From an uncultured Ignavibacteria bacterium (GTDB lineage: Bacteria > Bacteroidota > Ignavibacteria > Kapaibacteriales > UBA2268): a stretch of 32,891 nucleotides of DNA. Under the pieces are notes generated by a model, which was given only the letters and a program-made list of their open reading frames with translations, did no database searches and was not told the DNA's origin. The first letter of the stretch is position 1. Each line of letters opens with the position of its first letter. Positions 941 to 32,624 of the stretch are shown piece by piece. Position numbers and translations under genes: made by a program. The stretch spans positions 1 through 32,891 of the forward strand of contig CAIOZA010000007.1 of assembly GCA_903862655.1 (NCBI GenBank). Direction: 5' to 3'.

Positions 941-3900
941 ATGGTAAAAAAGCTCATAAGATTAGTTTTATTATCTTTACTGTTGTCGTTGCCGCTATAT
1001 CCACAGATAGTTACGCCGTTATTTAACTATAACACCAATGAGATATCACAAGCTAAATTTTTCTATGATAAAGATTTATTCAGTAAATCACGACAATTAC
1101 TCGAACACGCTATTAAAAACTATTCTGATCCAATAGGAATTGACAAAGCCGTCATGATGCAGGCAATTATTGATGCATCCTACGGAAATTTTACTCTGAG
1201 TGACAAAGCACTTGAGAAATTAATTATTGATGATAAGTACAGTCCTTACAGGGCTGATGCGGCTATGCTGAGAGCCTATCTTGCATTCGATCAGAAAGAT
1301 TTTAAAAATTCTGAAAAGTTATTTTCCCTCGCTAAAACAATAGCTGATGATGAATTCAGACTTAAAGGCGAAGATAAATTCAGTGAGCTATCCAATAATG
1401 CTCTGTACTGGCGTGCTGTTTCACTTACTCAAAGTGGGCATTACCAGGATGCACAGCCACTATTTGAGGAATGCTTTTCCAAATATCCAAATGGAAAATA
1501 TGCTGACGATGCTTTATTTGCTTTGGGTATGTCTGCAGAAGTTAATCGTCAGTATGAAATTGCAATAAATTATTTCAGAACATTGCAAAAGAAATATCCA
1601 TATTCTAACTCGGTCATAGCTTCGAGAATTAGAGAAGTAAATGATAATCTTATTCTTCGTGATGCCATATCTGCATTGATTACAATCGAAAGTACGAATA
1701 ATATTATCAAACATATATACGCTAAGGATTCTACTGGCTTAAAATATGAATCTCAGAGTTATTTTGATTTTGCTCAAGAAGAAGTACTCTACCTTCGTGG
1801 GGAAGCCTACAATCTGGCGGCAAATTACGAACAATCCGAATCGTTCCTACATGGCTTTCTCGAAACTTTTACAAATTCAACTCTAACTAACTATGTGAGA
1901 CTTGGCTATGCATGGTCACTGCTGAATCAAAATAGAAATGAAGAAGCCGTTAAAGTATATGAAACTGTTATCGGATCAAAAGATCAAACTGAATCGAGAG
2001 TTATTGCATTAGCAGAATTATACAAAGCAATTGCTATCAAAAGAAATGGCGATGTAGAAACTGCGCAAAAGGATCTTGCAAATTTAACTTCTCTTTCTGA
2101 TTTTCCATATTTGGCTCAGGCATTGCTTGAGCTAGGACAAATCTACTATGAGAAAAGTGAATACGAAAAAGCTGTAAAAGCCTTAGACAGAGCTGAAAGA
2201 GAAGCCACTGAAGCACTTGTGCAGGTTAGGATTCAACTTCTTCTGGGTGCTTCTAATCTCGAACTGAAACGTTGGGACAAAGCTATAAAGCCATACAAGA
2301 CAGCTGAACAGATCGCACTGAAGAGTTCTCATATCTTCATGCCTCAAAAGGATGTTTATATCAGCGAAGCAAGGCTTAAACTTGGCATTACATTCGTAAA
2401 AAATTCAAGGAATTCCGAAGCCATTCCTCCACTTCTAGCTTATTTATCTGAAAATAAAAATGGCAGAAGAAATGATGAAGCATTGTTCTGGATATCAGAA
2501 GCTTATTACAGGATAGATTTACTCAATAATGCAATTGAAAAGTACTCGTCATTGCTTGAGCTTTATCCTTCAAGCACCTACAAAGAAGATGCACTTTACG
2601 GACTGGGTTGGTCTTATTTTAGGCTGAAGAATTTCAATAAATCATCCGAAACATTCGAGACAATGATAAGGGAATTTCCTGATACTAAGTACGCCATGGA
2701 AGTTCTTACAAGACAGGCGGATGGATACTATGTTACCAGGAACTTCCGCAAGGCAGTTGATACATACAGAAAAGCAGCTCTGCACTCGCCAAACACAGAA
2801 GAAGGTCAATATAGTGCCTATCAACTTGCTCACGCTCTATATCAAATGGGGAGCTATGAAGAAGCAATCTCCGCGATGCTGTCTTTTGTCCGTTCCTATC
2901 CTAAATCTGCTTATGCCCCTAACTCATTGTATTTAACCGGCTGGATACGTTTCCAGCAGAAGAAATATCTCGAAGCAATCGATGATTTCAGATTCCTGTT
3001 GCAGGCTTATCCGCAGAGTGTACTCGTGCCAAGGGCCCACTTCGCAATAGCAGATGGCTACTATAACATCGAGAATTATGAACAGGCTCTGAAAGAATAT
3101 AATCTTATCGTTGACGAATACTCGAATAGTTCATTAGCTCCTGATGCCGTCAAAGGTATGCAATACTGCTACAATGCGCTTGGCAAACCAGATGAAGCAT
3201 TTAAAATAGCAGATAAATATATTGCATCTAACCCAACATCCCCTTTTGCTGCTGAGTTTGTATTTAAAAAAGGAGAGATGTTCTTCAATGGTAAGAATTT
3301 CAATGATGCTATCAATGAATATGATAATTTTATAAAGAAATATCCTGATAATGATAAGAATGCTGAAGCCATGTACTGGATGGGCAAGAGTTATATCAGC
3401 CTGAACGATCTTCCGAATGCAGAAAAAACATTCAGAAGTGTTATAAATAAATACGGTAAAAGTGACTTTGCACCACTAAGTATGCTGGAGCTAGGTCTAA
3501 TAAAAAAGCAAACTGCTGATATTAGTGCAGCAGATTCCATCTTAGTTCTTATTTCTAAGAATTATCCCGACAATCCAATTTCAGCTCAGGCAGGTTATGA
3601 AAGAGCTTCCATAAAATTCTCGATGGGAGACACACTTGGGGCTGTAGAGATTTTCAGAAGTGTTTACAAGCAATACCCGAATCAGGAATATGGGGAACAG
3701 AGCTCTTACAGAATAGCGATGTTTTTCCGAATTAAAGGCTGGTTGGATTCTGCAGTTGTAGAATTTCAGAAATTGATTCATTCAAATCTTAATCCTGCTT
3801 TATCAGCTGAGTCACAGTACAGAATTGGTGAAATCAAAATGAGACAAGAGAAGCTGGAAGATGCGGTAACAGCGTTCATTTCAGTTAAAGAAAATTTTGC

Positions 3901-4069
3901 AGGCATTGAGGACTGGTTTACTCTGGCATTACTAAATATGGGTGAGTGTTATGAAAGGCTTCAACAAAATGAGAAAGCAATAGAAACATATCAGGCAATA
4001 TCAACACTGAGACCTGATGACGATTTCGGCAAAACAGCAAAAAGAAGACTGAAACAATTAGAAAAATAA
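941..4069 (+). CDS. Large exported tetratricopeptide-repeat protein
   Basis: This is a 1042-residue protein of an N-terminal signal peptide (about residues 1-22, MVKKLIRL then a Leu-rich core ending in YPQ) followed by TPR-type helical repeats over almost its full length. Repeat units show the pattern A-x-Y-x-x-G-x-x-Y with recurring YP-S/N-S-xx-A-x-x-A-L-Y at the inter-repeat turn, resembling TPR_6/YbgF-like periplasmic repeats. The frame is open from a TTG at 887, but the ATG at 941 starts cleanly at the signal peptide and is preferred. It lacks a lipobox cysteine, so it is probably periplasmic or attached to the outer membrane by partners. It heads a five-gene co-directional run; the next gene, an outer-membrane barrel, follows after 28 bases. 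TPR proteins are scaffolds; its exact partner is an inference from this context. Confidence 0.88.
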   Translation: MVKKLIRLVLLSLLLSLPLYPQIVTPLFNYNTNEISQAKFFYDKDLFSKSRQLLEHAIKNYSDPIGIDKAVMMQAIIDASYGNFTLSDKALEKLIIDDKYSPYRADAAMLRAYLAFDQKDFKNSEKLFSLAKTIADDEFRLKGEDKFSELSNNALYWRAVSLTQSGHYQDAQPLFEECFSKYPNGKYADDALFALGMSAEVNRQYEIAINYFRTLQKKYPYSNSVIASRIREVNDNLILRDAISALITIESTNNIIKHIYAKDSTGLKYESQSYFDFAQEEVLYLRGEAYNLAANYEQSESFLHGFLETFTNSTLTNYVRLGYAWSLLNQNRNEEAVKVYETVIGSKDQTESRVIALAELYKAIAIKRNGDVETAQKDLANLTSLSDFPYLAQALLELGQIYYEKSEYEKAVKALDRAEREATEALVQVRIQLLLGASNLELKRWDKAIKPYKTAEQIALKSSHIFMPQKDVYISEARLKLGITFVKNSRNSEAIPPLLAYLSENKNGRRNDEALFWISEAYYRIDLLNNAIEKYSSLLELYPSSTYKEDALYGLGWSYFRLKNFNKSSETFETMIREFPDTKYAMEVLTRQADGYYVTRNFRKAVDTYRKAALHSPNTEEGQYSAYQLAHALYQMGSYEEAISAMLSFVRSYPKSAYAPNSLYLTGWIRFQQKKYLEAIDDFRFLLQAYPQSVLVPRAHFAIADGYYNIENYEQALKEYNLIVDEYSNSSLAPDAVKGMQYCYNALGKPDEAFKIADKYIASNPTSPFAAEFVFKKGEMFFNGKNFNDAINEYDNFIKKYPDNDKNAEAMYWMGKSYISLNDLPNAEKTFRSVINKYGKSDFAPLSMLELGLIKKQTADISAADSILVLISKNYPDNPISAQAGYERASIKFSMGDTLGAVEIFRSVYKQYPNQEYGEQSSYRIAMFFRIKGWLDSAVVEFQKLIHSNLNPALSAESQYRIGEIKMRQEKLEDAVTAFISVKENFAGIEDWFTLALLNMGECYERLQQNEKAIETYQAISTLRPDDDFGKTAKRRLKQLEK

Positions 4070-4097
4070 ACGTGCAATAAAGACTAAATTTATTAAA

Positions 4098-5702
4098 ATG
4101 AAATTGAATTATCTATATCGATTAATACTATTTACGATAACTCTGTCTGGTCAGATTTTCGGACAGACATCGTCACCGACACCTGCTCCGGAAGAATCCC
4201 AGGCTAAGCCACTTGAATTGCCCAATTACGTTATCGAAGGTAAGGGGCAAATCAATGTACAATCCGGAATAAAACAATTTTCGGATAAGATCAATAAGTT
4301 GACACAATCTGAGCTTGATTCTATTAATTCACTACAGAAAGAGCAAACAATACTACTGCCACCGAAGGAACTACCTTTAAAAATTATGAGTATTTTTAAA
4401 AGTGATGGTTTTATTAGAGCTGGCATTGGAACTTATCTGACTCCTAATGCAGAATTTGGTTATGACTTCGGAATTGACAGATATAATCTTTTTGCAAATG
4501 CAGGAATCGATGCTTCACAAGGTCACATTGACAACTCCGGATACTTTAGAACTTTTGCCAAAATTAACTCAGAATATATCGCTCCCGATAAGTTTTTTAT
4601 ATTTGGAGGCAGCAAAACTACCACAAAGTTTGATCTGGGATACGATAAATTTAAGCTATATGCAATTTCTTCGGCTCCCGAAAGAACATCATTCAATTTT
4701 GATCTTAATATCAACAGCACTGGATCTTATGATGGCTTTGATTTTTCCACCGGTGGCGGTTACCGTATATTGTCACTAGGGGGAAACAGCGCTAAGACAG
4801 ACAACAACATCAAAGTATATTTAGACTTAAAAAACAACTGGAAGGATTTTCTTATTGGTGGGAGATTAAATCTTGATTTCCATTCTCTAAACGGCATCGG
4901 AATGAATTTTATGGAATTCCTTTTGAACGGAAAATATTTTAAGGATAACCTTTCATTCTTCGGAGAAGGTGGTTTCCAATTTGCCAGTGGAAGTGCTAAT
5001 GCAACCTTAGCCAATTTCCTGTTTGATATCAGAGCTGAACTCAAGCAAGATAATTACTTCAGCTATAAAGCCTCTATTAAAAATTACATGAGTCAGAATA
5101 ATTATATTAGTGCATACTCCGCCAATCCTTATCTGTCCGATTCATTATTCTTTGACTTCGGTCGCAATCTTGATTTGAAAGTAAATGCTTACTATCGGCC
5201 TGATGAATACTATAACTTTAGTGCAGGTCTTTTGTATTCTTTCGGAACAAGAACACCCTATTATTCAAATGCAGATACTTCTACTTTTGTGATTATGTAT
5301 GCCAATACTAATAGAATGGCATTATTCAGCGAAGGTGAAATACATTTGTCAAAATCTGATTTGTTAATCTATAACTTTCAGTACAGTCTCTGGTCATTAT
5401 CGGGATACACCCTACCCTATGATATCCCTCTCAAATTAAATATTAGCTATAACCGCATTTGGTATGAAACTTTATCTTCTAGTATATCATTAACTTATGT
5501 TTCACCAAGATATGCCGATGATAAAAATATTACAGAGCTAGAAAGCTTTGTAGATTTATCGTTGTTCATTGAATATAAGCTTAATAGCAAGTTTGATGTG
5601 TTTATCAAAATGAATAATCTTTTAAATCAAAATATCTATATTTGGAATAATTATAAAGAAAGAGATATATTTCTGTCTGCAGGAATTCTTTTAAAGTTCT
5701 AA
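4098..5702 (+). CDS. Outer-membrane beta-barrel protein, TonB-receptor-like without plug
   Basis: The 534-residue product has a signal peptide (about residues 1-22, ending IFGQ). A short Pro-rich linker containing PNYVIEGKG at about residue 42 follows, then roughly 430 residues of alternating aromatic/polar strands typical of a transmembrane barrel. The C-terminus (MNNLLNQNIYIWNNYKERD, then G-I-L-L-K-F) resembles the last strand of TonB-dependent receptors, with a terminal Phe suited to BAM-mediated insertion. No plug or carboxypeptidase-like domain is present, which is unlike a normal TonB receptor. It sits between the TPR gene and genes for a SPOR protein and a TonB-like protein. An envelope complex is the likely setting; the substrate is unknown. 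Confidence 0.8.
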   Translation: MKLNYLYRLILFTITLSGQIFGQTSSPTPAPEESQAKPLELPNYVIEGKGQINVQSGIKQFSDKINKLTQSELDSINSLQKEQTILLPPKELPLKIMSIFKSDGFIRAGIGTYLTPNAEFGYDFGIDRYNLFANAGIDASQGHIDNSGYFRTFAKINSEYIAPDKFFIFGGSKTTTKFDLGYDKFKLYAISSAPERTSFNFDLNINSTGSYDGFDFSTGGGYRILSLGGNSAKTDNNIKVYLDLKNNWKDFLIGGRLNLDFHSLNGIGMNFMEFLLNGKYFKDNLSFFGEGGFQFASGSANATLANFLFDIRAELKQDNYFSYKASIKNYMSQNNYISAYSANPYLSDSLFFDFGRNLDLKVNAYYRPDEYYNFSAGLLYSFGTRTPYYSNADTSTFVIMYANTNRMALFSEGEIHLSKSDLLIYNFQYSLWSLSGYTLPYDIPLKLNISYNRIWYETLSSSISLTYVSPRYADDKNITELESFVDLSLFIEYKLNSKFDVFIKMNNLLNQNIYIWNNYKERDIFLSAGILLKF

Positions 5703-5746
5703 AAATTAGTTAATTTTGCAATAGCTAACATTGGGATCTAAAAATA

Positions 5747-7252
5747 ATGGCAATAATGGATGATAGTATTTTAAAGCCGGAAGAAGTATATGGCAATTTC
5801 GAGCCATCTCCCGATGAATCGCAGGAATCATTTCTGCTCAATGAAGCAGATACATATCCTGGTGAGTTGCCTTATGTTCCAACTGACGACGAACCGGTTA
5901 TTACCGATGAACATGTTGAGATTGCTACTGAAAACATTCCACTTGAAGAAGAACCCACAACTGATGATGACGCGGGTGAAACTTGGGATTTGTTCGAAGA
6001 TGAATCAGGTATCCCTTCTCAGGAGGATGTTTTAAAAGAAGCAGAAGAAATTGAATCACAGGATATAGCTAGGTTTAACGAATTGGTTAAAGCCGAAGAG
6101 GATGAGAACATTCCACCTCCAATTCATAATGAAATTGGATCTGAGGAACTAGATCCTTCTTCAAGAGTATCATACGAATTAGAGTCTAATGACACCAAAA
6201 TTGATGACGATTTTGTCCCTCAAATTTCAGGAGACGAAGTTTTAGAGCTTGATAACGACCTAAAGACAATACTGGAAGGCGATCTGAATGATGCAAAAAA
6301 TCGAAAACCATTAAAAAAGAAAGTTTCCGAACCGGAGTTTGATGAACAGAAAAATCAAGAAGGATTAGCAACGTTTCGTTCAGTTGATGATCTCGGTGCT
6401 TCCGATATGATTGATATATCTGCAATTGCAGCAGAACACCCATCAACATTTTTAATTCAGGAAGATGATGTTACTCAAATGAATGCATCCTTCTCTCAAA
6501 ATGTAGCTGAAGAGACAATTACTCAAGAACAACCAATTACAATATTGGAAACTGAAGCTGATCTCAAAAAAGTACTTAAGAAGGAAAAGGAAATAAAGAA
6601 ACCTAAAAAGGAAAAAGCTGCAAAAAAACCATTTCCAGTAATACCTTTTTTAATATATGCTGGAGCAATTCTAATACCGCTGCTGTTAATGGCTGGAACA
6701 TATTTGTATTTCAATTCAATGAAATTGGCAAAACTGAATAATACTATCTTTAAAATAAATAAAGCTCAAACAGCATTGCCATCAAAAGTAATCGCAAAAG
6801 ATACTTTAGTTGTTAAAAAAGAAATTAGGAAAGATACAATTGCCGAAATCATTAAACCTGAACTACTTAAGGTTGAAGAAAAATCCGTTCCTAAAAAGGC
6901 GATAGTTAAAAATCCAATCCAGTCGGTAACTAAAAATACAGCTGAAAGTCCCATAATTTCTGTCAAAAAATCAACTAATCCAAAAGTTGAAAAAACGCAC
7001 GTTCAACCGACTATGGCACCAAAGAATGAGATTTATCAGATTGAACTCTATTCTACACCATCAATAGAAGATGCTGAGATTTGGATGAATAAGCTTAAAA
7101 AGAGAAGTATAAGCGCAACCCTTCAAATTCAAAAAATTAGAGGGATATCAGTTTATAAAATAAGGTGCGGTTACTTCAAATCAAGGCAGGAAGCTCAGGA
7201 ATCTGCAATTAAATTAGGATTTTCACGTTCTTGGATAGACAGGATTAAATAA
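5747..7252 (+). CDS. Inner-membrane SPOR-domain protein with long acidic cytoplasmic region
   Basis: This 501-residue protein has three clear parts. Residues 1-270 are very acidic (Asp/Glu/Pro-rich) and probably disordered. A Lys-rich patch at about 274-294 precedes a single membrane span at about 297-322, so the positive-inside rule puts the N-terminus in the cytoplasm. A Lys/Pro-rich linker leads to a C-terminal SPOR domain at about 427-501 (starting YQIELYSTPS, with YKIRCGYF in the middle). SPOR domains bind glycan strands lacking stem peptides, usually at the division site. The gene lies 44 bases after the barrel gene. The combination suggests a protein linking cytoplasm, peptidoglycan and outer membrane, but no specific function can be named. 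Confidence 0.85.
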   Translation: MAIMDDSILKPEEVYGNFEPSPDESQESFLLNEADTYPGELPYVPTDDEPVITDEHVEIATENIPLEEEPTTDDDAGETWDLFEDESGIPSQEDVLKEAEEIESQDIARFNELVKAEEDENIPPPIHNEIGSEELDPSSRVSYELESNDTKIDDDFVPQISGDEVLELDNDLKTILEGDLNDAKNRKPLKKKVSEPEFDEQKNQEGLATFRSVDDLGASDMIDISAIAAEHPSTFLIQEDDVTQMNASFSQNVAEETITQEQPITILETEADLKKVLKKEKEIKKPKKEKAAKKPFPVIPFLIYAGAILIPLLLMAGTYLYFNSMKLAKLNNTIFKINKAQTALPSKVIAKDTLVVKKEIRKDTIAEIIKPELLKVEEKSVPKKAIVKNPIQSVTKNTAESPIISVKKSTNPKVEKTHVQPTMAPKNEIYQIELYSTPSIEDAEIWMNKLKKRSISATLQIQKIRGISVYKIRCGYFKSRQEAQESAIKLGFSRSWIDRIK

Positions 7253-7303
7253 ATATAGTTTTTTAACTTAAATAGTTGGGGAGCATTTCTGGGGGGGAAA
7301 GCC

Positions 7304-8086
7304 ATGTATGTTCCATACAGAGAAGATAATCAGGTAAATATAAAGTTCAGAATTCCTTGGGATAAACAGACAGCCAGAGGTTTTGGTATAGCTTTAGCTA
7401 TAACCATAATTCTATTATTGCTCATCACTGTCACAAAATACACTACTCCATATAACAAGTATAGTGACCAGAATCTTATACCACTTGAAATGATTAATTT
7501 TGGTCCCGGCGACGGAACTGGAGCGAGCAAAGGAAATTTATCAAAAGAGGGTGCCGCGCATAAAGGATCTAGAACATTGTCTGATCTTGAAGATGCTAGC
7601 GTTGCCGCACAATTCAGTAAAAGCCCAAAATCACCTGTTAGCGATCCTGAAAATTATTCCAAACACACAGCTATAGCAGATGCTTCCTCCGGAGAAAAAT
7701 CCACCAAGAATCCACTCGATGGAAATGCAGGTAAAAATGTTGGAGCATTGACTGGGCAACCTGAGGGTACAGGAACAGGTAAAATAGGTTTTGGACCAGG
7801 TGCAGGCGAAGGTTTAGGAGATATCGAATGGGGTGGTGGTGGAAACAGAACTGTCCTTTTCAAGAAGTTGCCCAAATATCCTCCGGGAATAAACACTCAA
7901 GCCCAGATCAGAATCAAATTCACTGTGTCTTCTGAGGGACAGGTAATTACAATGTACCCACTTCAAAAAGGCGATCCGATTCTTGAACGTGCAGCTATGG
8001 AAGCATTGAGATTATGGAAATTTAACAGACTAAGAGATAACAGAGAGATGTTCGGGGTTATTACATTTACTTTCAGGTTGAGTTAA
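7304..8086 (+). CDS. TonB-like energy transducer
   Basis: The 260-residue product has an N-terminal membrane anchor (about residues 25-47), a Gly/Ser-rich linker instead of the usual Pro/Lys-rich one, and a C-terminal TonB domain (about 187-260). That domain shows the family pattern: LPKYPPG, then RIKFTVSSEGQV, then LERAAMEALRLWKF. TonB proteins use proton motive force delivered by ExbB/ExbD to open outer-membrane receptors; no exbB or exbD is present in this window. The start ATG is preceded by a run of seven G followed by AAAGCC (7291-7303), an unusual purine-rich leader that may serve as the ribosome-binding site. The stop codon overlaps the ATG of the next small gene. It could serve the barrel protein two genes upstream. 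Confidence 0.85.
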   Translation: MYVPYREDNQVNIKFRIPWDKQTARGFGIALAITIILLLLITVTKYTTPYNKYSDQNLIPLEMINFGPGDGTGASKGNLSKEGAAHKGSRTLSDLEDASVAAQFSKSPKSPVSDPENYSKHTAIADASSGEKSTKNPLDGNAGKNVGALTGQPEGTGTGKIGFGPGAGEGLGDIEWGGGGNRTVLFKKLPKYPPGINTQAQIRIKFTVSSEGQVITMYPLQKGDPILERAAMEALRLWKFNRLRDNREMFGVITFTFRLS

Positions 8087-8265
8087 TGAATGTCGATGGA
8101 ATAATTCACTTTTTTATCAATCTACCAACCTATGGGAAAGTAATAATTATAGTATTACTCGTACTAATATTCTTTTCAATAATAAAGAAATTTCTAAAAT
8201 TCGCAATCTTATTAGCTGTCCTCGTGGTTCTTGTACTTCTTATTCTGCGTTTGTTATTAAATTAA
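8086..8265 (+). CDS. 59-residue hydrophobic membrane protein, translationally coupled
   Basis: An ATG at 8086 overlaps the TAA of the TonB-like gene (TAATG) and opens a 59-codon frame ending at TAA 8263-8265. The peptide begins MNVDGIIHFFINLPTYGK. One hydrophobic stretch (VIIIVLLVLIFFSII) is followed by KKFLKF and a second (AILLAVLVVLVLLILRLLL), fitting two membrane helices separated by a short basic loop. The stop/start overlap and the membrane-protein composition argue that it is real and made together with the TonB-like protein. No family is recognised. It may be an accessory subunit of the module. Confidence 0.7.
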   Translation: MNVDGIIHFFINLPTYGKVIIIVLLVLIFFSIIKKFLKFAILLAVLVVLVLLILRLLLN

Positions 8266-8369: not shown

Positions 8370-9710
8370 ATGGCTTATAACATTGGTGTAATTGGAACCG
8401 GATACGTCGGAGTAGTTACAGGTACTTGTTTTGCGGCAACCGGTAATAATGTTTATTGTATTGATATTTTAGAAGAAAAGGTAAATTTACTCAAGCAGGG
8501 TAAATCTCCTATATATGAACCAGGGTTGGAAGTGTTACTGCAAAGAAATTTAAAAGAAGAAAGACTGCATTTCTCAACTGATCTCGAAGAGGCAGTTAAA
8601 AATTGCCAGATAATTTTTCTTTGCTTGCCAACTCCCCCTAGTGAGGATGGATCTGCAGATTTACATCATGTTCTGGATGCCACTGAGCAAATCTGCCACA
8701 TAATAAAGAAGTATGATTTGCGTGAACGAAAAATTCTCATAAATAAGAGCACAGTTCCTGTCGGTACGGCTGACAAAACTAGAGCCATACTTGACAAGTT
8801 CATTCCTGATTATTTAATTGATGTCGCAAGTAATCCTGAATTCTTGCGCGAGGGTTTTGCTATTGAGGATTCACTCAAACCTGAAAGAGTAGTTATTGGT
8901 ACCGAAAGTGAATACGCAGAGGAAGTACTGAAGGATCTTTATCAACCATTTTTGAGAAGTGGTAATCCAATTTATATCATGGACATCAAAAGTGCTGAAA
9001 TCACAAAATATGCTGCCAATGCTTTCCTTGCGACAAAGATCTCTTTTATGAATGACTTATCGGCTTACTGTGAAGTCGTTGGAGCAGATATTGAAAAAGT
9101 AAGACTAGGAATAGGATCAGATACAAGAATTGGTAAGAGATTCTTATTTGCCGGTGTTGGGTATGGAGGGTCTTGTTTCCCGAAAGATGTGAGAGCACTT
9201 ATTCATTCAACTGAACAGGCTGGGACACCATTGGATATAGTTTCGGCAGCTCAGTCGGTTAATTTAAAACAAACTACTCGGTTTATTGCAAAAATTAAAA
9301 AGAGATTTGATGATCAAATCCAAGGGAAGAAATTTGCAATCTGGGGACTTGCCTTTAAACCAGATACAGATGATACACGAGAGGCACCGGCTTTCATTAT
9401 TATTGAAAATCTTCTTGCTGAAGGTGCGGCTGTTTCTGCTTATGATCCGGAAGCAATGAATAATACCAGAATAATGTTTGGTGATAAAATTGAGTATTGC
9501 GACAATCCTTATGATTGTCTAAAAGAAGCAGATGCGCTTATTATTGCAACTGAATGGACGGTTTTCAGAAACCCTGATTTCCAGAAGATGCAAAGCATGA
9601 TGAATGAAGTGATTATTTTTGATGGTAGGAATTTATACTCCTCTGCAGAAATGGAAAAAATGAAATTTGAATATCACTGCATTGGTAGAAAAGGTATAAA
9701 TACTAAGTAA
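8370..9710 (+). CDS. ugd: UDP-glucose 6-dehydrogenase
   Basis: This enzyme oxidises UDP-glucose to UDP-glucuronate with two NAD+, supplying uronic acids for surface polysaccharides. The 446-residue length is normal. The NAD-binding GTGYVG is at residues 9-14. NKSTVPVGT (about 125-133) and NPEFLREGFA (155-164) are family blocks, YGGSCFPKD carries the catalytic Cys269, and FKPDTDDTREAP (329-340) belongs to the C-terminal UDP-binding domain. GGAG at 8361-8364 is a good ribosome-binding site, which supports the ATG. No other polysaccharide gene is adjacent; it faces the transpeptidase gene convergently. A related GDP-mannose or UDP-ManNAc dehydrogenase is possible but the motif set favours UDP-glucose. 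Confidence 0.94.
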   Translation: MAYNIGVIGTGYVGVVTGTCFAATGNNVYCIDILEEKVNLLKQGKSPIYEPGLEVLLQRNLKEERLHFSTDLEEAVKNCQIIFLCLPTPPSEDGSADLHHVLDATEQICHIIKKYDLRERKILINKSTVPVGTADKTRAILDKFIPDYLIDVASNPEFLREGFAIEDSLKPERVVIGTESEYAEEVLKDLYQPFLRSGNPIYIMDIKSAEITKYAANAFLATKISFMNDLSAYCEVVGADIEKVRLGIGSDTRIGKRFLFAGVGYGGSCFPKDVRALIHSTEQAGTPLDIVSAAQSVNLKQTTRFIAKIKKRFDDQIQGKKFAIWGLAFKPDTDDTREAPAFIIIENLLAEGAAVSAYDPEAMNNTRIMFGDKIEYCDNPYDCLKEADALIIATEWTVFRNPDFQKMQSMMNEVIIFDGRNLYSSAEMEKMKFEYHCIGRKGINTK

Positions 9711-9724
9711 TAATGAGATTTGAC

Positions 9725-9768
9725 AAACAGGATATCCATTTCTTTCTCTGGAAACGGAAATCCTGTTT
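9725..9768. terminator. Bidirectional hairpin between ugd and the transpeptidase gene
   Basis: AAACAGGAT at 9725-9733 pairs perfectly with ATCCTGTTT at 9760-9768, and further pairing (CC..TTC with GAA..GG) extends the stem inward. It lies between two convergent genes and reaches the stop codon of the minus-strand one. The T runs are short, so termination in either direction is plausible rather than certain. Confidence 0.55.
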
Positions 9769-11893
9769 ATTTACAAATAAGCCTGCAATTCAATATCTCG
9801 CCTGTTTTTGAAAGATATATATTCTGAACTAAGCCACTGCCCTCAACTCTAACAGAAATATTCTTGCTTTGAAGAATTGTTAGTGCGTTTTTAATATTTA
9901 ATCCACCTATTTCATTCAGCAAAGATTCCTGTGTTATTGATAATGGTTTGGCAGAACTAAGTAAAAGTACTTCTGATCCGGCTCTAACTAATGAACCATG
10001 CTTTGGCTGTTGATTACCAACAATTTCAACTTTTGCTGTATTATTGCATTTTATTCCTAAGTTAGTTAAAAGTTTTACAGCCAGTGCAGCAGACATACCT
10101 TTAAGATTAGGTATGGTAATAAATCTATTGGTATCGATAGTATTATCGATCTTGTGTTTTTCATTCAGAAAATCATGGTTGACAGTAATCCAACTTTTTG
10201 ATATGTTTCTGAAAATTGGTGCAGCCGTCGAGCCACCATAGATATTGCCCTGAGGTTTATCTAGCACTATCATCATAACAAATTTGGGATTATCTGCCGG
10301 AAGTATCCCGGCAAAAGATGCAGTATAATTTGCTTTAGAATATGATCCCGAGGAAACTTGCTGAGCTGTGCCAGTTTTCCCTGCAATTCTTAGTCCTTCA
10401 ATTTTTGCAGCTATTCCTGTTCCACGGTCAACAACTCCGACAAGTAGATTGATCAATGCTTTGGATGTACCCTCCGATAGAACTCTACGTATTTTAATCG
10501 GTTTCGTGGTTGAAATAATATCCTTATTGGAATTATAAATATTACTGATGACATAAGGCTTCATCATTTCGCCAAAATTGGCAATAACTGCGTATGCATT
10601 TACCATCTGAAGCGGTGTAACCATAATACCATAGCCAAATCCCATAAATCTCTTACTAACAGCATCAAACTGACTTGCAGGTTTAATTTTCCCACTCTCT
10701 TCACCATGTAGTTCAAGATTATACTCCAATCCAAAACCAAAATCACGAATATATTTATAAAATTTATTACTTGGAATATTATTCGCAACGCTTGAAAAAA
10801 CAATATTGCTTGACTTTTCAATAGCTTCAGAAAATCTTACTTTCCCGAGTGGATGATCATCCTTTATTTCATAATCTGGAAATTTCAATACACCATTGCA
10901 GCCATCAACCCATTCATCAGGAGTGATTACATTTTCCTCAAGAGCAGCAGCTGCTGTTATAAGTTTAAACGTCGAGCCTGGTTCGTAAACATCGCTTATT
11001 GCTCTGTTTTTCATCGCTCCGGGTAGAATTTCCATTATATTATTCGGATCGAAAGTAGGAAAGGATGCCATTGCAAGAATTTCGCCAGTTGCTGGATCCA
11101 AAATTACTAATGATCCAGCTTCTGATCCTGATTTTTCAACTCCAAGCTTAAGCTCATGTTCAGCAATTCTCTGCAATTCTATGTCAATAGTTAGCTTAAC
11201 GGACTTGCCATTCATTGCTTCAGAAGTAGTGGTTGATATTGTGGGGACTAATCTTCCTGCAGCATTTCTGAGCATAATTGTGGATCCACTATGTCCCTTC
11301 AGCAATGAATCAAGCGAAAGCTCTAGCCCTGTTAATCCATTATTGTCAATATCGGTACAGCCGATTACCTGCGAAGCTAGAGAACCATAAAGATACACTC
11401 TTTTGGGCTCATAGATTTTGATAAACCCTTTACTCCTTATGCTATCCAAACCTTGAGCTTCATAAGGCAGAATGCCTCGAGCAAGCCAAACAAATGAGCC
11501 TTTGGAGTTGTAAACCTTGGATAATAGTTTTTCATTGTCCTGACCGGTAATAATTGAAATTCTATCACAGATTCTCTCAATTTCAGAACTGTCCTTTAGA
11601 ATAGAAGGATCGATAGCGAATGAAATACTCTTGATTGTTGATGCCAGCAATTTACCATTTCTGTCTAATATATCGCCTCTCTCGGGTCTTAAATTAACTC
11701 TGGATTCGTGTTGTGAACGGGCAATGCTTTTATATTTGTTTGTGTCTACAATCTGAAGAACCACTAAACGGGCAATGAGAGCAAGGAATCCAACAAATAA
11801 GACAGAAAATACAAAAATTATCCTCCAGAAATATTCGCGGGATAGAACCTGACCATCATTATTATTATTTGTATTTTTCGTTTTGCTGCTCAC
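9767..11893 (-). CDS. FtsI-type peptidoglycan transpeptidase with PASTA domains
   Basis: This class B penicillin-binding protein cross-links septal or elongating peptidoglycan in the periplasm. Of its 708 residues, a membrane anchor spans about 21-48 and a dimerisation/pedestal region follows. The transpeptidase has all three active-site motifs: S307-T-F-K310, S361-S-N363 and K506-T-G508. A PASTA domain follows at about 591-648, and a weaker PASTA-like segment at 651-708. PASTA on an FtsI paralogue recalls SpoVD/PBP2x arrangements and the FtsI of some Bacteroidota relatives. The start is a GTG; an Asn-rich N-terminus (N-N-N-N-D) precedes the anchor. It is alone here, away from the usual mraW-ftsL-murE neighbours, so it may be a second copy or a relocated division gene. 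Confidence 0.92.
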   Translation of the reverse strand: MSSKTKNTNNNNDGQVLSREYFWRIIFVFSVLFVGFLALIARLVVLQIVDTNKYKSIARSQHESRVNLRPERGDILDRNGKLLASTIKSISFAIDPSILKDSSEIERICDRISIITGQDNEKLLSKVYNSKGSFVWLARGILPYEAQGLDSIRSKGFIKIYEPKRVYLYGSLASQVIGCTDIDNNGLTGLELSLDSLLKGHSGSTIMLRNAAGRLVPTISTTTSEAMNGKSVKLTIDIELQRIAEHELKLGVEKSGSEAGSLVILDPATGEILAMASFPTFDPNNIMEILPGAMKNRAISDVYEPGSTFKLITAAAALEENVITPDEWVDGCNGVLKFPDYEIKDDHPLGKVRFSEAIEKSSNIVFSSVANNIPSNKFYKYIRDFGFGLEYNLELHGEESGKIKPASQFDAVSKRFMGFGYGIMVTPLQMVNAYAVIANFGEMMKPYVISNIYNSNKDIISTTKPIKIRRVLSEGTSKALINLLVGVVDRGTGIAAKIEGLRIAGKTGTAQQVSSGSYSKANYTASFAGILPADNPKFVMMIVLDKPQGNIYGGSTAAPIFRNISKSWITVNHDFLNEKHKIDNTIDTNRFITIPNLKGMSAALAVKLLTNLGIKCNNTAKVEIVGNQQPKHGSLVRAGSEVLLLSSAKPLSITQESLLNEIGGLNIKNALTILQSKNISVRVEGSGLVQNIYLSKTGEILNCRLICK

Positions 11894-22438: not shown

Positions 22439-25400
22439 ATGAGAATATTTACTCCCTCCAAAGCATCCGGATGGCTGATATTAACTTTATTTCTTTTATT
22501 GAGAATACCTTGTCAATCACAGATCAGTCAATGGCTGACCGACATTTCGCCATCAATTAATCTTGATTCCGCATTTGGAGCTAGGATCTCAATTGTTGAT
22601 ATTAATAATGATAATTTCCCTGATTTACTTTGGGGTACAGGCAATGCGGGTAAAAATCAGTTCCATTTATATCTTAATACACCTAATCCTGACATTTCAA
22701 GCTCAATAAAGAGAATTTATAAGGATATTACTGAAGAAAGTGGTATAAACGTTAACAGAGATCCAAATAAAAAGGGTAGAGTAGTTGATGTTGCGGCTAT
22801 GGCTGATGTAAACAATGATGGCTATGTTGATCTGGTGACTTCAATTTATTATCACAGATTAGAATATTATAAGGATTCACTTGACCCAGGTGACAGATCA
22901 GAAGTACTCCTCAATGATGGAACTGGACATTTTACTTTAGTGCAAAACAGTGGATTAAACACCATAAATGTTATTAATTCATATCCAGCAGGCTTAATTA
23001 ATGCAACTGGCATGTGCTTTTTGGATTATGATTATGATGGTAAGATAGATATATATATACCAACCTGGTATGGTGACAGAGCCAATGGTATAGGCATGCC
23101 TGATGTTTTGTTAAAAGGAAATGGGGATGGTACTTTTACTCAGGTAAAGTTGCCAATAATTGAACAAAATTTTTATCCGATGTATGGTGCTAACGTCACT
23201 GATTGGGATAATGATGGCTGGCAGGATGTTCTGACTTCTCCGTATTGCAACTCAAGAGGCAATTTATTCAGAAATATGCATGACGGAACTTTTCAGGATT
23301 ATGCTGTTCAAGCAAATTATAACGCACAGGATAAGACAGGAGATAATGGTCAGGCTCTCTGCCAATGGGAAGCACAGCCCGGTGATTATGATAATGACGG
23401 AAACATGGATATACTTCAGGTTCTAGTTCATGGTGGATTAGATCAGGGTGAAGGAAGAACTCATGTTTCACATAATAACGGACCGGACAGCGGTTTCAAA
23501 TTCACTCCAATGCTTGATATGCTCAAAAGAGATGAACCCACAAATTCTCATTTAGGCGATCAGGGAGGTCAATGGATCGACATAGATTCTGATGGTAACT
23601 TAGATGTCGCTATTGGGCAAATGGCTTATCCACAGGCAAATACTCAGGGTCAGGAGCGATTGTATATACTACAAAGAAATGGAGATATCTTTAAAGATAT
23701 CTCAAAAGATTTAGGAATTTTCAATACCATTAAGGAAGCACATTCTATGGAGCCACTCGATTTCGATCTGGATGGTGACCAGGACTTATTGGTTAGCCAT
23801 CAGAAGCGGGATACAACATACCGAGATACAGTAATTGATGGAAAAACACAGAAAATCGCTATTCCTAATGCATATATGAGAATAAGGCTACTTCATAATA
23901 ATCGTCAATCATCATTAGAAAATAGGGAGAATAAATGGCTTTCTGTTAAACTAGATCCTCCAGCCGGATGTAACAGAAGTTCTATTGGTTCAAGAATTAT
24001 CGTTTATTCAGGAACTAAAAAGTATATGCAGGAAGTTCAGGCTGGGCTTGGGCATTTCGCAGGCCAGCAGCAATTTATACGTTTTTTCGGTTTGGGTAAA
24101 ATAGATAAAATTGATTCGGTTACAGTAAGATGGCCCCGAAAGGATTTGAAAGTTACAACTTTAAAGCAAGTACCTTTCAATACAATAATATATGTTGATA
24201 CTACCGGAATCAAGGGTTTAATAAGTCCTACAACCTCGAAGAAAGCAGTGATTGCAATGTACCCACAGGAGCTGAAATTCGACACTGTTCGTGTTGGTAC
24301 TTCAAAAGAAATGAAATTCAAAATTTATAATTATGGAGATACAACTTTAAATGTATCGTCAATTGGGAGTGGTTCTGCCTTTACGATAACAAGTCCTTCA
24401 TTGCCCATAAATGTTGAACCTGGTGAGAATAACTCAAAAGAGATTACAATGAAATTCACACCTTTAGTAAGAAAGGATTATTCGTCGCCTTGTTCCATTT
24501 TATCTAATGCTTACAATTATCCTGTTCTTTTTCAACCGATAGCTAAGACTACAGCATTCGGTTTTATTGAACAACCTATGATAAGTGTGACAAAAAGTAT
24601 TGATTTTGACACAGTGTATTCGGACACATCAAAGGTATTGGATGCTGAGATAGAGAATACAGGTGAATTGCCATTGCATATTACAACAATCATTATGGCT
24701 ATTTTTAATGGACAGTTTACATTTGCACCAAATATTGGACCGACGACCATTCAAGCTGGACAAAAGCTTATTATCCCAATAAAATTTGAATCGGCATTTG
24801 AAGGTAAGTTTGTAAATAGCATTTCTATCATCAGTGATGGTTACAATGAACAAACATCCAATATTGATTTAATTGGATACTCTGAAATCCGCAAACCAAG
24901 AATAGCAATGACACCAACAATGATTCTTTTCGGAAATGTTGATATTGGGAAGAATAGTGAAAAGTCAATACAATTACGGAATGATGGAACAGGAACTTTG
25001 ATAATTGACAGGTTAACTTTTGAGAATGCATTTGAAAATATATATACTTTCAAGGATTTTAGTCTGCCATTCAGTATTCCGGCTAAAGGTTCCGCCAAAA
25101 TAAATATTGAGTTCAAACCGATTACTATTATGTCTTACAAAACAAATGTTTTCGTCCACTCCAATTCTTTTACTGATTCAACATTTAAATTAACATTTAC
25201 TGGTAGTGGACGCGAACCAAATTCTGTTAATGATGATGATTTCACAAATGGTTATCTCATAGGCATAGCTCCAAACCCTGCAAGTGATAATGTTGTGATA
25301 ATGATGAAGAATCAAAGTGGCAGATATTCAATTCAAATTATTGATCTATTAGGAAATACACTATTGAAATTAGTTGATGGACAATTACCAGACGGAGAAA

Positions 25401-25504
25401 ATAGATATATTTTTGAATCAGCAAAATATGGGAACGGTATTTACTTCTTATCGGTTCAAAATAGTTACGGAAGAAAGATTTATCCAATTGTAATTACGAA
25501 ATAG
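22439..25504 (+). CDS. Secreted FG-GAP/ASPIC protein with ASH repeats and T9SS sorting domain
   Basis: The 1021-residue product has a signal peptide (about 1-28). Seven acidic DxDxDG-type calcium-binding motifs of an FG-GAP/VCBS propeller lie near residues 54, 123, 196, 255, 317, 381 and 441 (e.g. DVNNDGYVD, DWDNDGWQD). An ASPIC/UnbV-like domain at about 515-590 includes SVTVRWPRKD. Three immunoglobulin-like ASH/choice-of-anchor repeats begin near 604, 715 and 825, each opening with I-x-M/V-x-P/K and F-x-x-V. The C-terminal 75 residues (APNPASDN to the end) are a type IX secretion type A sorting domain. The protein is thus exported through T9SS to the surface or medium, likely for adhesion or carbohydrate/protein binding. 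A lipoprotein gene follows after 7 bases. Confidence 0.92.
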   Translation: MRIFTPSKASGWLILTLFLLLRIPCQSQISQWLTDISPSINLDSAFGARISIVDINNDNFPDLLWGTGNAGKNQFHLYLNTPNPDISSSIKRIYKDITEESGINVNRDPNKKGRVVDVAAMADVNNDGYVDLVTSIYYHRLEYYKDSLDPGDRSEVLLNDGTGHFTLVQNSGLNTINVINSYPAGLINATGMCFLDYDYDGKIDIYIPTWYGDRANGIGMPDVLLKGNGDGTFTQVKLPIIEQNFYPMYGANVTDWDNDGWQDVLTSPYCNSRGNLFRNMHDGTFQDYAVQANYNAQDKTGDNGQALCQWEAQPGDYDNDGNMDILQVLVHGGLDQGEGRTHVSHNNGPDSGFKFTPMLDMLKRDEPTNSHLGDQGGQWIDIDSDGNLDVAIGQMAYPQANTQGQERLYILQRNGDIFKDISKDLGIFNTIKEAHSMEPLDFDLDGDQDLLVSHQKRDTTYRDTVIDGKTQKIAIPNAYMRIRLLHNNRQSSLENRENKWLSVKLDPPAGCNRSSIGSRIIVYSGTKKYMQEVQAGLGHFAGQQQFIRFFGLGKIDKIDSVTVRWPRKDLKVTTLKQVPFNTIIYVDTTGIKGLISPTTSKKAVIAMYPQELKFDTVRVGTSKEMKFKIYNYGDTTLNVSSIGSGSAFTITSPSLPINVEPGENNSKEITMKFTPLVRKDYSSPCSILSNAYNYPVLFQPIAKTTAFGFIEQPMISVTKSIDFDTVYSDTSKVLDAEIENTGELPLHITTIIMAIFNGQFTFAPNIGPTTIQAGQKLIIPIKFESAFEGKFVNSISIISDGYNEQTSNIDLIGYSEIRKPRIAMTPTMILFGNVDIGKNSEKSIQLRNDGTGTLIIDRLTFENAFENIYTFKDFSLPFSIPAKGSAKINIEFKPITIMSYKTNVFVHSNSFTDSTFKLTFTGSGREPNSVNDDDFTNGYLIGIAPNPASDNVVIMMKNQSGRYSIQIIDLLGNTLLKLVDGQLPDGENRYIFESAKYGNGIYFLSVQNSYGRKIYPIVITK

Positions 25505-30446: not shown

Positions 30447-32624
30447 ATGGGACAGTTTTACAAATTAGCAGCTGGTTTAACTTTATTTCTTTTGATTATA
30501 TCAGGTTTGAATTCTCAGGAATTACCATCAGTCATAAGCCTTGATGGATGGAAACATCCCGAGACTAAGATGAACTGCGGGCGTATGGAATCCTTAAAAA
30601 ACCAAATTGACAAACCATTGGCAAATGAAACCTATTACAGACCTTATGATGTTCTGAAATATGACATTGATTTTGATTGGTACAACATGATGAATCGACC
30701 TTCTACAATTGATTCAAATGGATTTGGGGTAGCCGTTTCTCAGGATGTAGTCTGGACAGGCATAAATACAATTACTTTAAGAATTGATACAGCCCAGACA
30801 GGGTCAATAGAGTTCGATGCGGCAGCACTCAAAATCAATTCTGTAAAAGTTAATAGTCAGACTTCAACATTTACTACAAATAGTAACATCTTGAAGGTTC
30901 AGTTAAATAGCTCTGCGAAATTAAATGATACACTCGTCGTTGAGATTCATTTTGAGCATAACCGTTTTATTAATTCTCAAACCTACAAAGGATTCTTTTT
31001 GTATCCAAAGCGACAGTATTTTGGGGTTATACCTGTACCTCCTTATGACTCAGCTTTTGTAGAAGAAAGATTAGCTTACACTATGAGTGAGCCTGAAGAA
31101 GCCCGTTACTGGATGCCCTGCAATGATTCACCGCATGACAAAGCATTTGTTACTGCCAGAGTTAAAGTTCCGGCAGGATTCAGTGTGGCATCTAACGGAT
31201 TGTTGCAAAATATTGATAAAAATAGTGCAGATTGGACTTATTTGTGGAAATCAACATACCAAATGCCGACATATCTTATTCACATAGCCTCATCTAAATT
31301 CAAGGAATATTCAGACTTTTATCCCAGAGTTACTAATCCTTTGGACACAGTTGAAATCAAGTATTTTATATGGCAGAAAGACTATGATGCTACAGCACAA
31401 GATCAGAGCCAATATAACGCCAAATGGACATTTGAAAAGAATGTGGAACTAATGAAGGCATATTCTACCAGATATATGGAATATCCTTTTGAGAAATATG
31501 GTTTGGATGCGCTTTTCCCATTTTATTATGGCGGGATGGAACATCAGACAATAACATCAATCAATCGAGTATGGTTAAGAAATCATGAAATTGGCGGACT
31601 GGCTCATGAATTGTCACATCAATGGCTTGGTGATTTGGTAACCTGCTCAAGCTGGAAGGATATTTGGATGAATGAGGGCGGCGCAACTTGGAGTGAGGCA
31701 ATCTGGCAGGAATGGCAATGGGGAAAGGATACATATTTTTATGACATGGTGGATAAACGGAATTATTACTTGGAGCGCGGCGGATCAACACTTCCACCGA
31801 TCTATGGGTTACCCATAAATACAATTTTTGCCGGTAATGCCGTGCTGGTTTATCAGAAAGCAAGCTGGGTTTACCACATGCTCAGAACAATGCTTGGTGA
31901 TGAACAATACTTCAAAAGCCTGAGAGCATATATGACAAAATTTAGTTATAAATCAGCAAATAAGGATGAATTCAGACAGGTCTTCGAGGACGAAATCAAG
32001 AATCCAGCTGTTGCTTTCAAGACATACTTCGATCAGTGGTTATTGAAACCGGGGCATCCTGTTTTTGATATGTCAGTTTCTACATCAAATATCGGGGTGA
32101 ATGCTTATAAAGCGAGTCTAACTTTGAAGCAAACGCAACCTTCTGATAATATTTCGGATGTTTTCCAGGTACCGGTCAGAGTTTTATTCAAGGGTTCTGA
32201 TAATCAGATAAAGATTGATACGTTGCTTCAAACAACGAGAGAGCAGAATTTCACAAGTGATTTGACATTCTATCCCGAACAAGTAGAAATCGATACTACA
32301 CATATACTATGTGAAGTTAGATCGCTTACAACCTCTGTACAGGAATCGAAGATTGTGAGTTCTACGGAAATATCGGTTTATCCCAATCCTGTGATAACAG
32401 GAAATATAGCCGGTATTGAGTTAGGGATTCAATCATTTGACACTGAATACATTGGTGTTTACAACAATCTTGGTGAAAAAGTTATGGATGTTTTCGCCGG
32501 TTCTTTGGAACCAGGAATGTATAAATTTACTTTTAGTACAGAAGCCTTATCGTCTGGTGTTTACTACATCAGATCCAATAATTCGAGATCACATCAAATG
32601 GCTAAGATTGTTATTGTGGATTAA
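30447..32624 (+). CDS. Secreted M1-family zinc aminopeptidase with T9SS sorting domain
   Basis: This 725-residue extracellular metallopeptidase removes N-terminal residues from peptides. A signal peptide covers about 1-23 (ending LNSQ). The exopeptidase motif GGMEH is at 362-366. Zinc ligands His387 and His391 lie in HELSH, and Glu410 in NEGGATWSE completes the HExxH-x18-E site. A Tyr-rich stretch after it (VYQKASWVYHML) carries the likely catalytic Tyr. The last 80 residues (ISVYPNPVITGN to KIVIVD) are a type A type IX secretion sorting domain, so it is exported by T9SS to the surface or medium. It is a single-gene transcript with a strong terminator, divergent from the reductase gene. Confidence 0.94.
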   Translation: MGQFYKLAAGLTLFLLIISGLNSQELPSVISLDGWKHPETKMNCGRMESLKNQIDKPLANETYYRPYDVLKYDIDFDWYNMMNRPSTIDSNGFGVAVSQDVVWTGINTITLRIDTAQTGSIEFDAAALKINSVKVNSQTSTFTTNSNILKVQLNSSAKLNDTLVVEIHFEHNRFINSQTYKGFFLYPKRQYFGVIPVPPYDSAFVEERLAYTMSEPEEARYWMPCNDSPHDKAFVTARVKVPAGFSVASNGLLQNIDKNSADWTYLWKSTYQMPTYLIHIASSKFKEYSDFYPRVTNPLDTVEIKYFIWQKDYDATAQDQSQYNAKWTFEKNVELMKAYSTRYMEYPFEKYGLDALFPFYYGGMEHQTITSINRVWLRNHEIGGLAHELSHQWLGDLVTCSSWKDIWMNEGGATWSEAIWQEWQWGKDTYFYDMVDKRNYYLERGGSTLPPIYGLPINTIFAGNAVLVYQKASWVYHMLRTMLGDEQYFKSLRAYMTKFSYKSANKDEFRQVFEDEIKNPAVAFKTYFDQWLLKPGHPVFDMSVSTSNIGVNAYKASLTLKQTQPSDNISDVFQVPVRVLFKGSDNQIKIDTLLQTTREQNFTSDLTFYPEQVEIDTTHILCEVRSLTTSVQESKIVSSTEISVYPNPVITGNIAGIELGIQSFDTEYIGVYNNLGEKVMDVFAGSLEPGMYKFTFSTEALSSGVYYIRSNNSRSHQMAKIVIVD

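Follow-up and report, generated by a model that had tools for sequence, protein, structure and literature searches.

A conserved envelope gene row of Bacteroidota with a plugless TonB-receptor-type barrel, a TonB-type transducer and a possible Tol-Pal-like role

What might a bacterium do with one row of genes for a long tetratricopeptide repeat (TPR) protein, an outer-membrane barrel without a plug, a SPOR-domain protein, a TonB-type force transducer and a 59-aa membrane protein? The question is raised by a 32,891-nucleotide stretch of DNA (the window) from an uncultured Ignavibacteria bacterium of the phylum Bacteroidota. The window spans contig C7 (CAIOZA010000007.1) from end to end; the genome assembly (GCA_903862655.1) totals 4.07 Mb. 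An earlier note, made from the sequence alone, suggested that these genes could bridge the cell envelope and couple division-site wall remodelling to energised outer-membrane work. We are confident that the genes form a conserved module with a TonB-coupled barrel. We give even chances to the wider proposal that they are the form taken, in the window's taxonomic order (Candidatus Kapaibacterium and allies), by a proton-motive-force-driven, Tol-Pal-like trans-envelope module that is widespread in Bacteroidota. The Tol-Pal-like role, judged by itself, stands at even chances or a little under.

All five genes lie on the plus strand. The first encodes the 1042-aa TPR protein (941..4069; assigned from the list of open reading frames, family scans and a structure model), for which the reading-frame list also offers an alternative upstream TTG start at 887. 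It is followed by the genes for the 534-aa, 22-strand TonB-receptor-type outer-membrane barrel (4098..5702), the 501-aa inner-membrane SPOR protein (5747..7252), the 260-aa TonB-type transducer (7304..8086) and the 59-aa hydrophobic protein with a basic middle (8086..8265), for which no family match and no structure match was found. The reading-frame list bears out the gaps of 28, 44 and 51 bases and the one-base stop/start overlap that the earlier note had read, and exbB and exbD are, as it said, not in the five-gene cluster. A promoter and terminator scan found no terminator-like site inside the three intergenic gaps. Promoter-like sites number 43 (33.7 expected, sd 5.4) and terminator-like sites 10 (5.6 expected, sd 2.1). 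Some terminator-like sites are present on the plus strand inside module genes, and some promoter-like sites inside genes, and there may be internal transcript ends or starts.

When 198 genomes of the phylum were searched with the single barrel sequence, 77 gave matches, and 16 of these (the window's own genome included) belong to the window's order. In all 15 same-order loci that were fetched, the TPR, barrel, SPOR and TonB genes follow in that sequence on one strand, and the 59-aa gene was recognised in 12. This conserved order rules out a chance cluster of unrelated genes. Together with the ExbB and ExbD genes in relatives' rows (see below), it supports the claim that the genes are one conserved envelope-spanning set. 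The 15 loci and a further 25 from the class and phylum were chosen by barrel match; six of the 40 have no TPR match, and one (L067) has no barrel match. Another 71 loci (the named loci) were found via the TPR gene, on which their counts are conditional; several sit at the end of a contig, and a few come from outside the window's order. They share contigs with the 15 same-order loci (e.g. L031/L078, L033/L084, L034/L091), so the two sets are not independent. A strong TPR match is present in 68 of the 71, and all four genes stand in order in 44 of these 68. The TPR gene is alone in 13 named loci, some at contig ends and some with other genes downstream. Outside these sets, 32 of 37 further loci, all from other families, were counted (L218-L243 and L246-L251; the f20 loci L244, L245, L254 and L255 and the weak L253 were set aside). 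The TPR gene is found in 28 of them, at most 134 bases from the barrel gene or overlapping it in 26.

Some loci depart from this picture. In L096, L097, L099, L101, L109, L112 and L113 a long TPR homologue is present with no barrel match in the locus, and other genes follow it in the inspected L097, L101, L112 and L113. The record titles of L103 and L133 say Proteobacteria (Desulfobulbaceae and Bradyrhizobiaceae), yet both carry the order's gene row, perhaps through binning or labelling errors.

The barrel was modelled with AlphaFold from 50 sequences (mean pLDDT 83.6). The model has 22 strands of at least eight residues from residue 104 on, preceded by a disordered N-terminal tail (residues 22-64 and 77-100 below pLDDT 50). 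Its top Foldseek match is BtuB (E 1.9e-18), and VIA-align places residues 96-534 of the model on BtuB 133-594 (Z 25.1, rmsd 3.0 Å, 390 residues). The BtuB alignments begin at BtuB residue 130-133, and the plug of BtuB ends before the aligned part. By this model, the barrel is the counterpart of the post-plug part of BtuB. The window protein itself has no Pfam family match; among it and 49 relatives, 13 of the 50 match a TonB-receptor barrel family and none matches the Plug family, which rules out a plugged receptor and agrees with the plugless barrel of the earlier note. One could still suppose a nutrient receptor that has lost its plug and sits beside unrelated genes by chance, since the barrel is homologous to receptor barrels. 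This is hardly credible: it is contradicted by a gene order conserved within the order and beyond it, and by the lack of a Plug match in all 50 proteins.

The disordered tail carries two conserved motifs, both seen in alignments. The first is a TonB-box-like peptide, PLELPNYVIEG (aa 38-48; 4209..4241, plus strand). Peptides of the [ED]LPxxx[IV]xG type occur in 72 of 114 barrels, chiefly in the window's class, and by eye they resemble the TonB boxes of plugged receptors in the same genome (e.g. DDVVITG, KEVIITG). In a small TonB-box scoring, 32 of 83 N-termini reached p<0.05 vs 2 of 83 control stretches, with some of the matches elsewhere in the tail; both sets, the 114 barrels and the 83 N-termini, contain duplicates from the same contigs. 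It is plausible, not proven, that the peptide is a TonB box. The second motif (aa 68-93; 4299..4376, plus strand) may occupy the barrel lumen.

The partner of such a box would be the TonB-type protein. Its C-terminal domain (7871-8083, plus strand) scores slightly under the curated cut-offs (Pfam 23.5 of 24.6; NCBIfam 26.8 of 27.1), and a profile of 20 sequences from its family finds solved TonB domains at E 5e-8. The earlier assignment as a TonB-type transducer is thereby upheld, TolA and TonB not being told apart. The protein has a transmembrane segment (7379-7441, plus strand) and, next to it, a juxtamembrane motif (7475-7537, plus strand) that is well conserved across relatives and is a possible motor box. 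A 2025 survey of periplasmic force transducers (PMC12204202; this and the other articles cited by accession are drawn on as excerpts) places the motor box in the juxtamembrane region, and conservation at this place suggests that the module TonB still engages a motor.

Which motor would that be? Rows outside the order can run TPR, barrel, SPOR protein, ExbB, ExbD, TonB. Outside the order, 33 of 57 loci have both ExbB and ExbD in the row (19 of the 25 class and phylum loci and 14 of the 32 further loci), as scanned by phmmer or by profile, differently for loci L031-L141 and L218-L255. Within the order, ExbD is present in 40 of 41 genomes, mostly in two copies. The window's own genome has both copies adjacent on contig C20, with what read as exbB and tonB genes on either side, and this is its sole exbD-bearing locus; the genome-wide search covered ExbD, and the two flanking genes were named by reading. 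With an exbB-exbD-exbD-tonB locus elsewhere in the genome, the module TonB presumably uses that motor in trans. A Planctomycetota contig (L141, 2769-6929) has a long TPR reading frame that overlaps an ExbB-like one and is followed by an ExbD-like one, possibly one of the TPR-motor clusters of which PMC12204202 speaks.

The SPOR protein would tie the row to the cell wall. SPOR domains bind the denuded peptidoglycan of the septum. Here the domain is C-terminal (PF05036 at 23.7 bits over a cut-off of 21; 7034-7249, plus strand), and a single hydrophobic stretch (aa 296-322; 6632-6712, plus strand) was read as a transmembrane segment, in keeping with the inner-membrane SPOR protein of the earlier note. 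The acidic N-terminal part is taken as cytoplasmic. It bears a conserved motif (5780..5872, plus strand), which in relatives is of the GGF...DDxxF.L....YPG type, and many window-type SPOR proteins share the GGF, DD-x-x-F and YPG elements. All 51 window-type proteins match SPOR at E<=0.01, and none, the window's included, has an HU-type domain. Among 38 relatives' proteins from outside the order, 34 match SPOR, 22 Bac_DNA_binding and 17 HU-CCDC81_bac_2; in many of these relatives it is the N-terminal part that holds the HU domain, a feature of which the earlier note was unaware. The SPOR counts are conditional, since SPOR-family profiles served to collect the 51 and 38 proteins, apart from two taken by position. 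HU-SPOR proteins are reportedly the subject of a published prediction.

These HU-type domains allow another explanation, in which the module is mainly a chromosome-to-envelope tether for nucleoid positioning or segregation and its outer-membrane part is secondary; HU would have been lost in the window's order, with the short N-terminal motif in its place. The DNA-binding families of the relatives and the conserved motif of many window-type proteins fit such a tether. We consider it quite unlikely, as the window-type proteins have no HU domain while the outer-membrane parts are kept.

A further explanation starts from the barrel and from the gene next downstream, which encodes a UDP-glucose dehydrogenase (8370..9710, plus strand). 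This gene is a conserved neighbour in the window's order, next downstream in 12 of the 15 same-order loci, and we do not claim it as a part of the machine. The module could be a proton-driven exporter or translocon that moves surface lipoproteins, lipids or polysaccharide outward through its wide plugless barrel, with the TPR protein as the gate and TonB to open it. A 22-strand barrel without a plug would be a large conduit, and of the 29 named loci with both the dehydrogenase and the 59-aa gene, 26 have the two less than 200 bases apart. How surface lipoproteins flip across the outer membrane is a question raised in the excerpt of PMC12578637. An exporter nevertheless leaves the conserved SPOR domain and the relatives' HU domains unexplained, and none of the 25 loci outside the order that were searched for the dehydrogenase gene showed it as a neighbour. 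We regard it as unlikely.

The TPR protein is nearly all repeats by family scans, and by eye its start is signal-peptide-like with no lipobox cysteine. Its model is a single continuous all-helical solenoid in which 53 helices follow the signal peptide (mean pLDDT 91.0). It scores 327.2 bits against the YbgF TPR model (cut-off 90.1), via many repeats, and 181.6 bits against NCBIfam OM_YfiO (BamD; cut-off 81.4), in six stretches of the long repeat protein. The equivalog models are not reached (CpoB of NCBIfam, 130.8 bits under a cut-off of 383; BamD PRK10866, 34 of 363 bits), and PorW/SprE (NF052312) stays far under its cut-off (99.3 of 250 bits). Structural matches have low TM-scores and are general TPR scaffolds, including a periplasmic scaffold of the Campylobacter flagellar motor and a chain of the extended translocon of the type IX secretion system (T9SS; 8gl8). 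A known subunit of the BAM complex was rejected as an identity for the module, judged from excerpts of PMC12611786 and PMC12578637. Like the module, the Bacteroidota BAM complex is a phylum-wide outer-membrane machine that includes barrels; unlike it, the complex has an extra barrel, BamG, that was superposed on FadL, and 'TPR' is mentioned in neither paper.

Could the module stand in for Tol-Pal? In its excerpted text, PMC12204202 finds no identifiable tol-pal loci in Bacteroidetes, proposes PorE as a stand-in and expects further outer-membrane-stabilising systems yet to be found. We compared the distribution of the barrel with that of TolB. A 34-sequence barrel profile matches 376 of 395 genomes at E<=1e-3, where the weak matches include ordinary receptors. 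At E<=1e-20 it matches 141 of 155 genomes outside family f20 and none of the 43 within it (a hand count over genomes up to G197, with the set of 198 taken as identical across searches). By eye, G005 (L239) seems to bear a plug and should be struck from the 141. The 14 genomes below the threshold are G001, G006, G011, G014, G016, G058, G079, G087, G096, G125, G133, G137, G167 and G180, of which G096 does show TPR, barrel and SPOR (L243). A later barrel search used an alignment that included the G005 sequence, and its matches in G005, G087 and the f20 genomes G173 (2.9e-35) and G052 (1.1e-22) are partly circular or ordinary receptors.

Family f20 consists of green sulfur bacteria, judged by the FMO protein in 13 of 13 tested genomes (of 43). 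A TolB query from an f20 genome matches all 43 of the family at E<=1e-30. Outside it, four partial matches were obtained, all in f26 genomes (E 5e-33 to 7e-36) and read as propeller repeats; no TolB match at this threshold was found in 151 of the 198 genomes. The window's own genome has no TolB match at E<=1e-30 and no TolB_N match at E<=1e-3. The excerpted review PMC7391070 names Chlorobi among tol-pal holders. A green sulfur bacterial locus (L254, 6437-13805), from the genome that supplied the TolB query, has a row of tolQ, tolR, tolA, tolB, a pair of pal genes and a TPR gene similar to ybgF, in which a 559-aa gene separates tolA from tolB; the pal and ybgF assignments were made by reading. 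The complementarity of TolB and barrel fits a replacement of Tol-Pal. An exception to it is G079 of family f33, which has the FMO protein and SprA and neither TolB nor a strong barrel match.

SprA, a component of T9SS, nearly tracks the module: it is present in 154 of the 198 genomes, and the 44 without it are, by subtraction, the 43 of f20 and G002. This and the low-scoring structural match of the TPR protein to 8gl8 speak for an accessory module of T9SS or gliding. Five genomes without SprA (G002, G374, G254, G262 and G367) nevertheless have barrel matches of E 1.2e-32 or better, which makes dependence on T9SS unlikely. The row of G002 (L220) runs TPR, barrel, a 367-aa gene, ExbB, ExbD and TonB, and G254 (L235) has the TPR-barrel pair; such rows rule out a role in T9SS only. 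SprA is also present in several genomes that gave no strong barrel match, and the PorW/SprE score likewise speaks against the idea. We hold an accessory role in T9SS or gliding to be very unlikely.

Two further features of the window may be recorded here. By eye, a repeat protein (22439-25504) and an M1-peptidase-like protein (30447-32624) are large secreted proteins with T9SS-like sorting tails. At 9767-11893, a penicillin-binding-protein-like transpeptidase gene, read from its translation, is convergent to the module and the UDP-glucose dehydrogenase gene.

Several observations weigh against a Tol-Pal-like module. The contrast between TolB and barrel amounts to one clade (f20), and sprA follows nearly the same pattern, f20 genomes being without it too. 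Fourteen of the 155 genomes outside f20 have neither a TolB match nor a barrel match at E<=1e-20; in families f15, f33 and f37, and in single genomes, TolB and a strong barrel match are both missing. The weak TolB_N profile matches 9 of the 198 genomes, including G047, G176, G085 and G135 from outside f20, all with strong barrel matches. From the literature, the excerpt of PMC12204202 speaks of putative fusions of TolB and Pal in some Bacteroidetes, and PMC5891637 reports normal growth of a Cytophaga hutchinsonii mutant in a Pal homologue.

Others concern the row and its parts. ExbB and ExbD were not found in the row in any of the 15 same-order or 71 named loci. The earlier note had named scattered homologues without conserved order as the outcome that would speak against it. 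This is not the general picture, and it holds in part: several families keep just the TPR-barrel pair, and downstream of the TPR gene some loci have different genes. The TPR protein passes both the YbgF and the BamD-type model, so these models are unspecific and do not tell its role. The TonB-box-like peptide of the window does not score above shuffles (p 0.74). The transmembrane segment of the module TonB is without the SHLS-type His that L046 and L052, with ExbBD adjacent, possess. The same His is missing in the genome's other TonB and in two other relatives with adjacent ExbBD, and since two of the four inspected ExbBD-adjacent relatives are without it, its absence is not decisive either way.

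How, then, does the module compare with known systems? Like Tol-Pal (TolQRA, TolB, Pal, CpoB), it has a TonB/TolA-type transducer, motor genes in many relatives' rows, TPR repeats of the YbgF/CpoB type and presumed contact with wall and outer membrane. Unlike Tol-Pal, its genome has no TolB match, a plugless receptor-type barrel and a SPOR protein stand in the row instead, and no exbB or exbD is in the row in the window's order. With TonB-ExbB-ExbD and the TonB-dependent transporters it shares a 22-strand barrel of BtuB/FhuA fold, a TonB C-terminal domain and an N-terminal tail peptide, whereas its barrel is without a plug and goes with TPR and SPOR genes. In many relatives the SPOR protein matches the Pfam families of the HU-CCDC81-like/SPOR proteins of Bacteroidota, but the window protein has SPOR without HU. 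PorE, described in the excerpt of PMC12204202 as a proposed CpoB-TolB-Pal fusion, is likewise a proposed Tol-Pal stand-in of the same phylum and differs in being a single fusion lipoprotein with other domains. We rate the parts as known kinds and the combination as new within the Ton/Tol kind. The combination was not described in the titles and abstract openings of the open-licence literature searched, which is no proof of its absence from print.

On the Tol-Pal-like reading, the module would work as follows. Proton flow through ExbBD, supplied in trans here, would drive the module TonB, whose C-terminal domain would grip the barrel tail and pull on the outer membrane. The TPR solenoid would scaffold or close the plugless barrel from the periplasm, and the barrel would pass the pull to the outer membrane. 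The SPOR protein would place the assembly at the septal wall. The net effect would be an outer membrane held or drawn in during constriction, which is the work of Tol-Pal in other diderms. The contact between TonB and barrel, the action at the division site and every step that goes further than gene order, domains and folds are what we infer from these. The coupling of wall remodelling at the division site to energised outer-membrane work, as in the earlier note, would follow the same lines. A larger version, which we consider doubtful, is that the module is the missing Tol-Pal equivalent of Bacteroidota. In many relatives it would then run from DNA (through HU) to the inner membrane (with motor and TonB), the septal wall (through SPOR) and the TPR-held plugless barrel, with proton force pulling the outer membrane inward at division and contact with the nucleoid built in.

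If the Tol-Pal-like reading is true, the module, which may be the Bacteroidota machine for outer-membrane attachment, would show how bacteria of a major phylum keep the outer membrane in place as they divide. It would also mean that a receptor barrel has exchanged its role in import for one in mechanical anchoring; we know of no other receptor barrel converted in this way, though no search aimed at this was made.

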